Shown piece by piece: positions 4,734 through 8,339 of a DNA stretch of 64,000 bases; position 1 is the stretch's first letter; every line of letters starts with the position of its first letter. The position numbers were made by a program, and so were the translations under genes. A model generated the notes under the pieces. It saw only the letters and a program-made list of their open reading frames with translations. It did not search any database and had not been told where the DNA came from. This stretch comes from Acidobacteriota bacterium (GTDB taxonomy: Bacteria; Acidobacteriota; Terriglobia; Acidiferrales; UBA7541): the NCBI GenBank assembly GCA_003224085.1, contig QHYK01000048.1, positions 1 to 64,000 of the forward strand, in the 5' to 3' direction.

Positions 4734-5069
4734 TTACTTCTTTGTGAACATGGACTTGGGGATCATGCAGTGCAAGCCCTCGCGGATATCCACTACCTGC
4801 GAGACGCGGCAATCGCCGACGATCGAAGTGAGTGAATGGGCCTCTTCGCGCGACATCGGCACTGTCTTCTGTTCCGCCAGGAAATTCACAGTTTCACGCA
4901 CGGCAATCTTCCTTGCTTCGTTCAAGTCTTCGTCGAATCCCATGAAAATCCAATGTGTGGAGGTCTCCGCGCGCGGCCAATCGATGTGAAGATCCTTGCG
5001 CACGATGGGTTGGATTTCAATTGCCCTATAGGAACATTCCAGACTTGCAGGAAGGAAAGGAATTACCAA
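4734..5069 (-). pseudogene. Acetamidase/formamidase family, C-terminal fragment only
   Basis: The 111-aa reading frame matches the C-terminal end of the FmdA/AmdA acetamidase-formamidase family: DWPRAETSTHWIFMGFDEDL, then SLTSIVGDCRVSQVVD, and the characteristic ending MIPKSMFTKK. Intact family members are about 300-400 aa, so the N-terminal two thirds, including the core of the amidase fold, is missing. The ORF-track start is a TTG that overlaps the stop codon of the upstream pseudopilin gene, so the annotated start is an artefact. Family-like sequence begins around residue 10-15. I read this as the stump left by a deletion that brought the pseudopilin gene next to it. It could be read through from the secretion operon but should not be active. 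Confidence 0.8.
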
Positions 5070-5509
5070 TCGTTGTAAGGCGTGCCATCGAATGGAGACG
5101 TTTTCGGAGAATTGGAGTGTACGTCCACCATTCCGGTGGTGGTTTGATCGGCGCTCAGGACCACGCTGTCGAACTGCGGCACCCAGTCCTTGGCGCCGGT
5201 CATGGGATCCACGGGCACGGAGCGGAGGTAGCCTGCTTGTTGTAGATCATCAATAGATTGCGGCGCGGCCTGTTTGTCCAGCGTGTAATTATCGATGGCG
5301 TCGCGAATGCTTCTAAGATCGGTTTTCAATGCGGCTTCCTTGGAGTGTTGGACGACCTTGTCGTAACGAACCGCGGCGATGCCGATAAGAATCAAGATGA
5401 TGGTCATGACGATCATCAACTCGATGATAGTGAACCCGAGATTGCGCCCTTCACCGCGCCATTTCCGTGGTGAGCGCGCAAGCAATCGGCTAGGCAAGAG
5501 TATCTTCAC
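5063..5509 (-). CDS. GspG-like type II secretion pseudopilin
   Basis: This 148-aa protein carries a classic prepilin N-terminus: a basic leader of about 25 residues, then the cleavage/methylation motif GFTIIELMIVMTI with Glu at +5, running into one hydrophobic helix. A prepilin peptidase would cut between Gly and Phe. The C-terminal domain has the GspG features VPVDPMTG.KDWV and a terminal PFDGTPYNDW. GspG is the major pseudopilin of type II secretion; T4P-like relatives are possible. It is the third gene of an apparent operon (secretin, pseudopilin, pseudopilin), 18 bases after the preceding gene. No GspE, GspF or prepilin peptidase gene is in the window. Its stop codon overlaps the frame of the amidase remnant. 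Confidence 0.85.
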   Translation of the reverse strand: MKILLPSRLLARSPRKWRGEGRNLGFTIIELMIVMTIILILIGIAAVRYDKVVQHSKEAALKTDLRSIRDAIDNYTLDKQAAPQSIDDLQQAGYLRSVPVDPMTGAKDWVPQFDSVVLSADQTTTGMVDVHSNSPKTSPFDGTPYNDW

Positions 5510-5527
5510 GTTGATTCTTTCCTCCCC

Positions 5528-6058
5528 TCACCAGTCCGAGTACTTCGTGCCATCCAGCGCCGTGCCGGTGGATTGGGAATACACGTCGAAAACGTTTTTA
5601 CCGCCCCACTCCCTGGAGTCCGGATCGTCCTGCACGGCGCGCAGTCCCCAGTCCGCTTTGCCGGTCATTGGATCGATGGGGATCTTGCGCAAAAAACGAA
5701 TCTTCCTGTCGCTGCTGCCGCTGCTGCCAATACCCCCGGTGTTTGTGCCAAGTGGCACGCCTGTGACCAAGGTCTGGAGATCGGGCGGGTACCCCTCGCT
5801 TCCCATCTCCACTTTAATCTGGTTGTGGTCCGCCGCATCTTTGTAGCGATCTATGGCATCGCGGATTTCGTCCAAGTTGTGGTGCAGCGTGGCTTCTTTT
5901 TCGCGAACCAGGGAGTAACGAGCGATGGGCAGCGCGATGGAGGACAAGATTAGCAAGAGGGAGCAGGTCAGGATGAGCTCGAGAAGAGTCATGCCTGCCT
6001 GCGAGGCGCGCCGGTGACGGCGGTTGCGCAATCGAATTGGAGGTTCGGGCAACATCAC
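5528..6058 (-). CDS. Second GspG/H-like pseudopilin
   Basis: This 176-aa protein has a prepilin-type N-terminus: a basic leader (about 22 residues) followed by GMTLLELILTCSLLLILSS, with Glu at +5 after the cleavage site, then an amphipathic helix and a GspG-like soluble domain. Near the end it repeats the features of its neighbour (IPIDPMTGKADWG and a terminal DGTKYSDW), so the two are probably ancient tandem paralogues. A short Gly/Ser stretch (TGGIGSSGSS, about residue 105) looks like a flexible loop. It lies 13 bases downstream of the secretin gene and 18 bases upstream of the other pseudopilin, consistent with one transcript. It may be a major or minor pseudopilin. Confidence 0.82.
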   Translation of the reverse strand: MMLPEPPIRLRNRRHRRASQAGMTLLELILTCSLLLILSSIALPIARYSLVREKEATLHHNLDEIRDAIDRYKDAADHNQIKVEMGSEGYPPDLQTLVTGVPLGTNTGGIGSSGSSDRKIRFLRKIPIDPMTGKADWGLRAVQDDPDSREWGGKNVFDVYSQSTGTALDGTKYSDW

Positions 6059-6071
6059 TCTATAAATTCGA

Positions 6072-8339
6072 CTACTTCTGGACTTGCAGAGTTGCTTCGC
6101 TGGCGACCAGCGGAATGAGCTTCTGCTGCGAATCTTTCGCGTTCACCTGCACGATGGACAAAGGCGAAGAGCCGGGCGCGACAGCTTTTACCACGAGCCC
6201 GAGAAGTGTTCCACTGCCGCTTACCCCAGGAGTGCTCGGGGGCCGGGTGGCGGAAATGATGTATTGGCCTTTGTCTTTGATCGGCTGCGAAACGATGGAG
6301 ATTTCCTGCGCACCACCGTTGGAGAGGAAGCCGCCGTGTTGTACTTCTTCGACGCTGATCACCTTGGGGTCGTATTGCAACATCAAAGGAATGGAGAAAA
6401 GGTCGTTCACGTTTTCCACGACCACGCCTAAGGTGGCGGTCTGGCCGGCCTTGAGCGTGAGTGTTTGCGGCTCGAAGCGAATCTTTGCGACGGCATTGGC
6501 GGCTGACGAAGATTGAGTCGCGGCGCCTGGTGCGGGGTTCGACGGCGTCGTGGTCGGATTGGGAGTCGGATTCGCCGGCGGCTGAGTCTGTTCCGGCTGC
6601 GGCGCGCGAAGCTCGCTTTCGCGCTTGGTCTGCACATTGACTTCTGTTCCGGAGAGCATTGGCCGCAAATTGGCTTTTGTCCAGAATGGCATCCGCACAA
6701 TGTGCGGAATCAACACAATGAGCGTCTCGTCTTCCTCGTGGTCCGTTTTAGTGTCGGAGAAAAGGCGCCCGAGGATGGGGAGTTTTGCAAAGCCCGGCCA
6801 ACCGCTTATGCTTTTGGAATCCGTGCGCTCAATCAAGCCTCCAAGGAGATTAACCTCACCCTCCTTCAAACGGATATCGTGCTCGATGGTCTTCGTGCCG
6901 ATCACTGGCTGTTGAATGCCGCCAATGTTCACGGTGTTTAACTCCGAAGAGATCTCAATACGCAATTTCAAGCTGACTTCGCGGTCGGGGTGCACGCGCG
7001 GAGTGACATCTATCTTGACTCCGACGTCCAAGTACGTGAACTGGGTGTTGACCAGCGGGTTGACGAAGCCCGCCCCTCCGGTGGCCCCCACACCGACGCC
7101 CGCTTGAAAACTGCCCGTGGCTACGGGAATGCGCTGGCCGATTATTAGTTTGGCGATCTGCCCATCCACGGAGCGAATTTCAGGATTTTGAATAATTTTT
7201 GTATCTGTGTCCGACAAGAGCATGGTGGCGGTAAAACTTGGCAGCGTAACACTGTAGCTGTTGCCATTCAGGTGGCGGAGCGAGTTGAACGTAATAGGAT
7301 TGCTTGTCGTGGTGCTTCCCGAAGTTGTGCTGCCGTTCGAAATGGCGACCGACGCAGTTTGCCCGGGCGAAATCCCGAGCTCGCGCATGCGGTCCGTGGT
7401 GGTCTGCAGGACTTCCACCTGGACCACGACTTCCGGCTTGGCCTTGTCAATGTCGTCCAGCATCTTTTGGACGAGCAACAACTTGTCTGGGGTATCGCGG
7501 ATGACGATGGCATTTTGCGCGTTCACTTGCTGGATGCGTTTTAAGTCAAACAGTTGCCGCAGCCCGGTCATGATTTCCGTAATGTCCTGCGGCTGCGTGA
7601 CGTTCGAAAGATAAAACGTTTTGACGACTTCTTCGTCGTAGTCGCGGCGCTTCTGGGGCTGGTCGGGAATGACGAAGATCGTGTTTTCCGTAACCGGCTT
7701 GGTGAACGCCTTGCTTTCCAGCGACGTGATCTCCAGCGCCTGCTCCAGGGTGATGTTGTTGAAGTCCACCGTGATGCGCCGCCCCGTAAAGTCCGGGTCA
7801 TACACCATTGTCAGCCCAGCCAATTTGCCAATCGTGTCGAAGACCACCTTCGCATCGTTCGACATCTTCAGGTTGATCGGCGCGCGCGAAAGCGGCTTGA
7901 TCTCCGGCGGCATGGAGGCCAGCGGCTGCTGATTGTGGTCCGTGGGCGGCTCGCTAGTTTGGTTCCGATGCTCCCTTTCCGCGAGCATTTCCGCGGCCCG
8001 GCTCAATTCCTGCTCGGCGATGGAACTCGAAGGGTCTGCGCCGAGCGCTTTTTGGAATTCGATCGCCGCGCCGTCCAGCTCGCCTCTTTTTCGCATCTCC
8101 AGGCCGCGCTTTACATGAAACTCCCCAGCCTCGAAACGCGCCTGATTCAGGCGGATTCGATAGGCAGCGTTGTGGGGTTCTGCTTTGACCGCTTTTTCGT
8201 AATAACTGAGAGCGGCGTCGTAGTCCTGGAGGTCCTCCGCTTTCATGCCTTGGCTATATTCGCCGTGTCCCTTGGGGCATCCTGCGGCGAACAGCCCGAA
8301 ACTTACACATAGCAATAGCGTTCCCGGGGTCTGACGCAT
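6072..8339 (-). CDS. Secretin lipoprotein with N-terminal TPRs and C-terminal cohesin domain
   Basis: The 755-aa product starts with a lipoprotein signal ending FAAGC (Cys21). TPR-like repeats cover about 30-120. Next comes an STN/N0-like domain (about 155-230), a secretin N1 domain (about 240-300) and the secretin channel domain (about 300-550, with VPVATG-like and VGVKIDVTPRV segments, then LLGGLIERTDSKSISGWPG). A Pro/Thr/Asn-rich linker (575-615) leads to a cohesin-like beta-sandwich (about 618-755: LKAGQTATLGVVVENVNDL, LQYDPKVISV). GspD/PilQ-type secretins form the outer-membrane pore of type II secretion or type IV pili. The C-terminal cohesin replaces the usual pilotin-binding S-domain and suggests carbohydrate or protein docking. 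It is the first gene of an operon with two pseudopilins and is divergent from smpB. Confidence 0.88.
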   Translation of the reverse strand: MRQTPGTLLLCVSFGLFAAGCPKGHGEYSQGMKAEDLQDYDAALSYYEKAVKAEPHNAAYRIRLNQARFEAGEFHVKRGLEMRKRGELDGAAIEFQKALGADPSSSIAEQELSRAAEMLAEREHRNQTSEPPTDHNQQPLASMPPEIKPLSRAPINLKMSNDAKVVFDTIGKLAGLTMVYDPDFTGRRITVDFNNITLEQALEITSLESKAFTKPVTENTIFVIPDQPQKRRDYDEEVVKTFYLSNVTQPQDITEIMTGLRQLFDLKRIQQVNAQNAIVIRDTPDKLLLVQKMLDDIDKAKPEVVVQVEVLQTTTDRMRELGISPGQTASVAISNGSTTSGSTTTSNPITFNSLRHLNGNSYSVTLPSFTATMLLSDTDTKIIQNPEIRSVDGQIAKLIIGQRIPVATGSFQAGVGVGATGGAGFVNPLVNTQFTYLDVGVKIDVTPRVHPDREVSLKLRIEISSELNTVNIGGIQQPVIGTKTIEHDIRLKEGEVNLLGGLIERTDSKSISGWPGFAKLPILGRLFSDTKTDHEEDETLIVLIPHIVRMPFWTKANLRPMLSGTEVNVQTKRESELRAPQPEQTQPPANPTPNPTTTPSNPAPGAATQSSSAANAVAKIRFEPQTLTLKAGQTATLGVVVENVNDLFSIPLMLQYDPKVISVEEVQHGGFLSNGGAQEISIVSQPIKDKGQYIISATRPPSTPGVSGSGTLLGLVVKAVAPGSSPLSIVQVNAKDSQQKLIPLVASEATLQVQK

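Follow-up and report, generated by a model that had tools for sequence, protein, structure and literature searches.

The secretin gene and its neighbours

The window analysed here is a stretch of 64,000 nucleotides (C131:1-64000) of an Acidobacteriota genome of 6.8 Mb in 159 contigs. It contains a secretin gene followed, in the same direction and after gaps of 13 and 18 bp, by two ORFs with prepilin motifs (Table 1). The ORF list places the secretin gene exactly where the initial annotation had it, and the encoded chain runs from a lipobox through a TPR region, N0/N1 domains, the secretin core, an S-domain-like stretch and a disordered Pro/Thr linker to a cohesin domain. The order proposed initially (lipobox, TPR, STN, secretin, Pro/Thr linker, cohesin) was thereby borne out by the sequence, Pfam and an AlphaFold2 model of the full-length protein, in which helical TPR, N0-N1, secretin strands, the disordered linker and the cohesin domain can all be recognized.

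Table 1. Features of the secretin locus, with positions in the window
Feature	Position	Strand	Evidence
Secretin gene, 755 aa	6072..8339	-	ORF, Pfam; full model pLDDT 80.7
Lipobox cysteine, Cys21 of LFAAGC	8277..8279	-	Sequence
TPR helical region, residues ~25-127	7959..8267	-	Pfam TPR_2/TPR_14; all-helical, mostly pLDDT >90
N0 (STN-like) and N1 (Secretin_N) periplasmic domains, residues ~155-298	7446..7877	-	
Secretin channel core, residues 303-549	6693..7433	-	Pfam Secretin 6.4e-35
S-domain-like stretch, residues 550-578, conserved NLRP...GT	6606..6692	-	Consensus of 46 relatives
Pro/Thr-rich disordered linker, residues 579-614	6498..6605	-	pLDDT <50
Cohesin-fold domain, residues ~619-755	6075..6485	-	Pfam, PDB profile search, AlphaFold2, Foldseek
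Pseudopilin 1, prepilin motif GMTLLE, C-terminal DGTKYSDW	5528..6058	-	N_methyl, TIGR02532
Pseudopilin 2, GspG-like, prepilin motif GFTIIE, C-terminal DGTPYNDW	5063..5509	-	TIGR01710 below cut-off

The lipobox predicts a mature protein starting at Cys21, with Pro rather than Asp at position +2. Among 66 aligned rows, which include duplicates, 49 had the pattern; it was missing mainly in the sister family f2, and most of the Acidobacteriaceae-like relatives in the class lacked it. TPR_2 matched the 755-aa ORF at E=1.1e-7. Pfam matches to STN and Secretin_N were weak; the N0-N1 model shows a strand-helix pattern, and this region aligned with PilQ and GspD chains in a PDB profile search, which also matched the core to the GspD chains 5wln, 6i1x and 6hcg.

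The secretin missed the cut-offs of both the GspD equivalog TIGR02517 (122.9 vs 351.35 bits) and the PilQ family TIGR02515 (108.3 vs 284.35). Likewise, pseudopilin 2 carries a prepilin motif and matched GspG (TIGR01710) at E=1.5e-10, with 41.2 bits falling below the cut-off of 88.85. As the curated GspD, GspG and PilQ cut-offs were all missed, the system is best described as T2SS-like and not as a classical T2SS.

In many relatives, a homologue of pseudopilin 1 comes directly after the homologous secretin, and homologues of pseudopilin 2 also adjoin the secretin. The two pseudopilins share their terminal motif (DGTKYSDW and DGTPYNDW; window 5063-6058), which by eye looks like the C-terminal calcium-loop region of GspG. 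A 111-aa ORF after pseudopilin 2 (window 4734-5069, minus strand) resembles by eye the C-terminal end of an acetamidase/formamidase; it had no Pfam match, was absent downstream in the relatives looked at and is probably a remnant.

The C-terminal cohesin domain

The full ORF scored 25.6 bits with Cohesin (PF00963), which is borderline given the cut-off of 24.1, and the domain alone reached 29.4 bits. To go beyond this single score, relatives were collected and 46 diverse C-termini aligned, of which 44 matched the Cohesin family (best 9e-15), and a profile of these C-termini found solved cohesins in the PDB at E=7e-9. AlphaFold2 modelled the isolated domain with a mean pLDDT of 95.2, and all of the 50 best PDB fold matches listed by Foldseek were cohesin chains, with E-values down to 1.9e-11 and a TM of 0.78-0.82 for the first two. 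The fold closely resembles that of cohesins whose structures were determined together with a dockerin. The model and profile matches thus establish a true cohesin fold at the C-terminus of the secretin, as had been suggested initially. An S-domain or an unrelated Ig-like fold, which the structure prediction could have returned instead, was ruled out by the Foldseek matches to cohesins.

Cohesins are protein-binding modules. In its own genome, the domain gave the only cohesin match and occurs as a single copy, so that there is no scaffold of several cohesins.

Secretin-borne cohesins and dockerins

The initial annotation proposed that the cohesin docks dockerin-bearing enzymes as in a cellulosome, so that exported enzymes would be retained at the cell surface by a minimal one-cohesin cellulosome built on a secretin. 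The closeness of the fold to dockerin-bound cohesins speaks for this proposal, as does the occurrence of dockerins and free cohesins elsewhere in the phylum. However, a Pfam profile search, which a highly divergent dockerin could escape, gave no dockerin match in the genome itself, and among the matches listed dockerins occurred in none of 15 genomes of the class (this genome and 14 others), compared with a secretin-borne cohesin in all 15.

At the scale of the phylum, 109 of 149 Acidobacteriota genomes had a secretin-borne cohesin among the matches listed. On the same basis, dockerins were found in 42 of these 109 genomes and in 15 of the 40 others (odds ratio 1.04, p=1.0), so that secretin-borne cohesins are statistically independent of dockerins in this sample. 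Free-standing cohesin-like proteins served as a positive control: among the matches listed, dockerins were present in 17 of the 21 genomes that had such proteins and in 40 of the other 128 (odds ratio 9.35, p=4e-5). The p-values are indicative, as genomes are not independent samples. The dockerin-richest lineages (e.g., G016, G056 and G043) lacked a secretin cohesin among the matches listed. With the C-terminus being periplasmic in known secretins (PMC6532946), display of enzymes on the cell surface appears very unlikely, and we rejected it on the grounds of dockerin absence, co-occurrence and topology.

Six genomes without a secretin-borne cohesin (G016, G056, G043, G030, G068 and G079) had 12 to 40 dockerin matches each, among the matches listed, together with few or no detectable cohesins, and may possibly contain undescribed dockerin partners. 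Elsewhere in acidobacteria, an fn3-dockerin protein is encoded beside small free cohesin-like proteins (L132:304-1740, L133:4776-7069), which are candidates for a stand-alone cohesin-dockerin pair.

A platform operon on the same contig

No ATPase or platform gene (gspE/gspF) adjoins the secretin and pseudopilin genes in the window. All ATPases of this kind in the genome, namely two of the PilB/GspE type and PilT, were found together with two GspF/PilC genes at C131:145-159 kb. A type IV pilus cluster in this region (pilB-pilT-pilC, a two-component pair and four pilins) is adjoined by an operon with the order lolA-gspF-gspE-pilM-pilN-pilO-pilP-pseudopilin (C131:155153-162495), which lies 147 kb from the secretin locus on the same contig and contains no secretin. 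Pfam matches in this operon were LolA (7e-18), T2SSF (1e-53), T2SSE (2e-129, with MshEN), PilN and PilO/T2SSM_b. The PilM- and PilP-like genes had no Pfam match and were labelled by position and similarity to relatives. GspE and GspF (C131:156-159 kb) are a set of their own, separate from PilB and PilC of the type IV pilus. The two adjacent pseudopilins and the lack of a motor described in the initial annotation therefore hold locally, but the lack of a motor does not hold for the genome.

The genome encodes further secretins. A PilQ-like ordinary secretin is located with pilMNOP-like genes in a pilMNOPQ-type operon on contig C122, and a second TPR-secretin of 611 aa, without cohesin, is located on contig C17 with its own PilM-N-O-P-like genes (L023, L130) and no GspE/GspF on that contig. 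We infer that the window secretin is paired with the sole spare GspE/GspF, and the platform may serve the C17 secretin as well.

Also encoded around the C17 secretin (G000 C17:45-63 kb; L023, L130) are a multihaem cytochrome of 705 aa, which contains an MtrC/MtrF-like domain, and two multicopper oxidases. The region has the look of a locus that exports redox proteins out of the cell, reminiscent of OmpB in Geobacter. A further secretin of 1286 aa (G000 C33:135-139 kb; L024:7040-10897) has the uncommon feature of He_PIG Ig and FG-GAP repeats inserted between its N1 region and secretin domain.

The absence of gspE/gspF beside the locus could also indicate that the secretin and its two pseudopilins are a remnant that has degenerated and lost its function. 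However, the ORFs are intact and full-length, their relatives share 46-79% identity with them and motor genes are present on the same contig. A remnant is thus hardly credible, and the finding of the platform operon led us to reject an orphan secretin.

Split and contiguous gene sets in relatives

In other Acidobacteriota families, the TPR-secretin-cohesin gene and the pseudopilin genes are contiguous with gspF, gspE and pilM/N/O/P (L079, L082, L088, L091). A close GspE orthologue was present in 120 genomes, and in 74 of them, representing 44 families, the secretin was encoded within 12 kb of it. This argues that the window holds one half of a split T2SS-like machine and that the ATPase and platform seem to be missing from the locus only because the operon is split. 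Within the class, the two genes were apart in all 15 genomes, and the GspE regions of those examined contain combinations of LolA, GspF, PilM-P and a third pseudopilin. A window-type secretin was never recognized beside GspE in ten split loci, nine of them from the class, one of the ten (L139) giving one weak secretin-like match. The stand-alone specialized display module that had been proposed thus gives way to half of a T2SS-like system, the gene set being contiguous in 44 other families. More generally, split operons can hide complete secretion systems from local readings of gene neighbourhood.

Related systems on Burkholderiales plasmids

Outside Acidobacteriota, the sample consisted of plasmid records, as the genome scan returned acidobacteria only. 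Burkholderiales plasmids carry compact systems in which gspF, gspE, PilM/N/O/P-like genes, a TPR-secretin and pseudopilins are all contiguous. The secretin ends in a cohesin in the plasmids of Eleftheria terrae, Janthinobacterium lividum EIF2 and Burkholderia ambifaria, but lacks it in those of J. lividum HAMBI_1919 and Cupriavidus metallidurans CH34. Genes beside the compact systems encode RHS/FG-GAP repeat proteins, an M4 metalloprotease and a multicopper oxidase (L136:1-6438, L138:776-3445, L135:14167-15798), which are plausible cargo.

The C17 paralogue and the two Burkholderiales homologues without the domain indicate that the cohesin is an optional part of the system. In the tree, the paralogue and one of these two homologues are nested among cohesin-bearing secretins, which suggests that they have lost it.

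Two of the plasmid secretins are named “cohesin domain-containing protein” in NCBI/RefSeq, and the secretin-cohesin architecture is therefore already visible in databases. Automatic names of this kind, “polysaccharide catabolic process” among them, can be misleading for members of this secretin family. In the literature searched, we found no experimental work on the TPR-secretin-cohesin system and no paper linking cohesin to secretin, the one match being a review of display technology.

Topology and possible role of the cohesin

In secretin structures, only the rim of the channel lies in the outer membrane, the remainder being periplasmic, and it is in the periplasm that the pilotin contacts the C-terminal S-domain (PMC6532946). 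The match of the secretin profile to 6hcg extends past the barrel, up to profile position 573, and by homology the linker should therefore emerge on the periplasmic face of the outer membrane. The cohesin domain would then most likely be an accessory component hanging within the envelope and not on the surface. Taken as a whole, the observation of a secretin ending in a cohesin is confirmed, and the interpretation attached to it is partly supported: the domain order and the cohesin fold are right, but surface display of enzymes conflicts with a C-terminus that is periplasmic by homology and with dockerins that are independent of secretin cohesins.

We consider it probable that the gene encodes the secretin, probably self-piloted, of an atypical T2SS of the PilMNO type, to which an optional periplasmic cohesin module has been added. 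In such a system, about a dozen or more secretin subunits would form the channel, and GspE/GspF would work with the pseudopilins to drive folded substrates through the ring. The lipid anchor and the fused TPR would act as a built-in pilotin, with the Lol pathway carrying the secretin. There is precedent in HxcQ, a lipoprotein secretin that requires no pilotin (PMC3542185), and in TadD, a pilotin that is a TPR lipoprotein with a PilF-like fold; it packs around the secretin, whose C-terminus it binds (PMC10499894). The LolA gene, which adjoins gspF here and in some relatives of the class, is suggestive of Lol-dependent targeting. As sister family f2 mostly lacks lipidation, self-piloting is not general and would apply to the window secretin and most other families.

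The cohesin of each subunit would be held in the periplasm, below the outer membrane, on a 36-residue flexible tether leading from the S-like stretch. There it could serve as an optional protein-binding module that either links the ring with a further component of the envelope or collects substrate, its partner probably not being a canonical dockerin. It is possible, though we put it forward tentatively, that the cohesins act as an envelope anchor or assembly clamp, binding a partner in the machine or envelope and thereby stabilizing the ring; equally tentative candidates for this partner are PilP, the TPR fused to an adjacent subunit or some other protein of the periplasm. The stabilization would resemble that by contacts between S-domain and pilotin. 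Such a role agrees with the position of the cohesin directly after the stretch that binds the pilotin in T2SS and Tad secretins and with its wide distribution (109/149 genomes, among the matches listed), but paralogues and Burkholderiales homologues without cohesin are found with the same kind of surrounding gene set, so that the domain is dispensable there for channel formation. The other role, in which the cohesin would bind periplasmic exoproteins through a tag other than a dockerin and hand them on to the channel, seems rather unlikely given that by homology the domain lies outside the barrel and not at its mouth; it would suit a protein-binding module and the patchy presence of cohesins among similar systems with differing neighbours (multicopper oxidase, M4 protease, RHS/FG-GAP).

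Acidobacteriota are a dominant soil phylum in which secretion has been little studied. That a flexible ring of periplasmic cohesins binds a non-dockerin partner in most of the phylum and governs assembly, anchoring or substrate choice is a proposal that we regard as falling a little short of probable. The preferred reading of an atypical T2SS with an accessory cohesin gives the cohesin fold a probable dockerin-free life inside the envelope, within a secretion machine of most sampled Acidobacteriota.

Comparison with known systems

The window domain shares its fold with CohA2 of C. acetobutylicum and the A. fulgidus cohesin 2xdh (TM 0.78-0.82), with detectable sequence similarity. It differs from cellulosomal and non-cellulosomal cohesins in being single-copy, fused to a secretin, probably periplasmic and without a detectable dockerin partner.

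Like the classical T2SS with its PulD/XcpQ-type GspD, the system has the secretin core, GspE, GspF and a GspG-like pseudopilin, but it has fewer N-domains, a TPR fusion and PilMNOP-like genes in place of GspC/L/M. A lipid-anchored secretin is also known in HxcQ, and a TPR lipoprotein that aids secretin assembly in TadD/PilF (PMC3542185, PMC10499894), whereas here the TPR and the predicted lipid anchor are within the secretin chain itself. The PilMNO-type T2SS of Burkholderiales plasmids has the same components (TPR-secretin-cohesin, GspF, GspE, PilM/N/O/P-like genes and pseudopilins), but its genes are contiguous, its secretins form a separate clade and close homologues without cohesin exist.

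The nearest described system that we can name, likened here by its description in the literature, is Pul/Oxp of Geobacteraceae, an “atypical” T2SS with the pseudopilins PulG, OxpG and TklG, without which the multicopper oxidase OmpB is not secreted (PMC3543383, citing Mehta 2006). Compared with that description, the window locus itself has no multicopper oxidase neighbour. The parallel is strengthened by the multicopper oxidases near the C17 TPR-secretin and the Cupriavidus CH34 system, which are 57% identical to each other.
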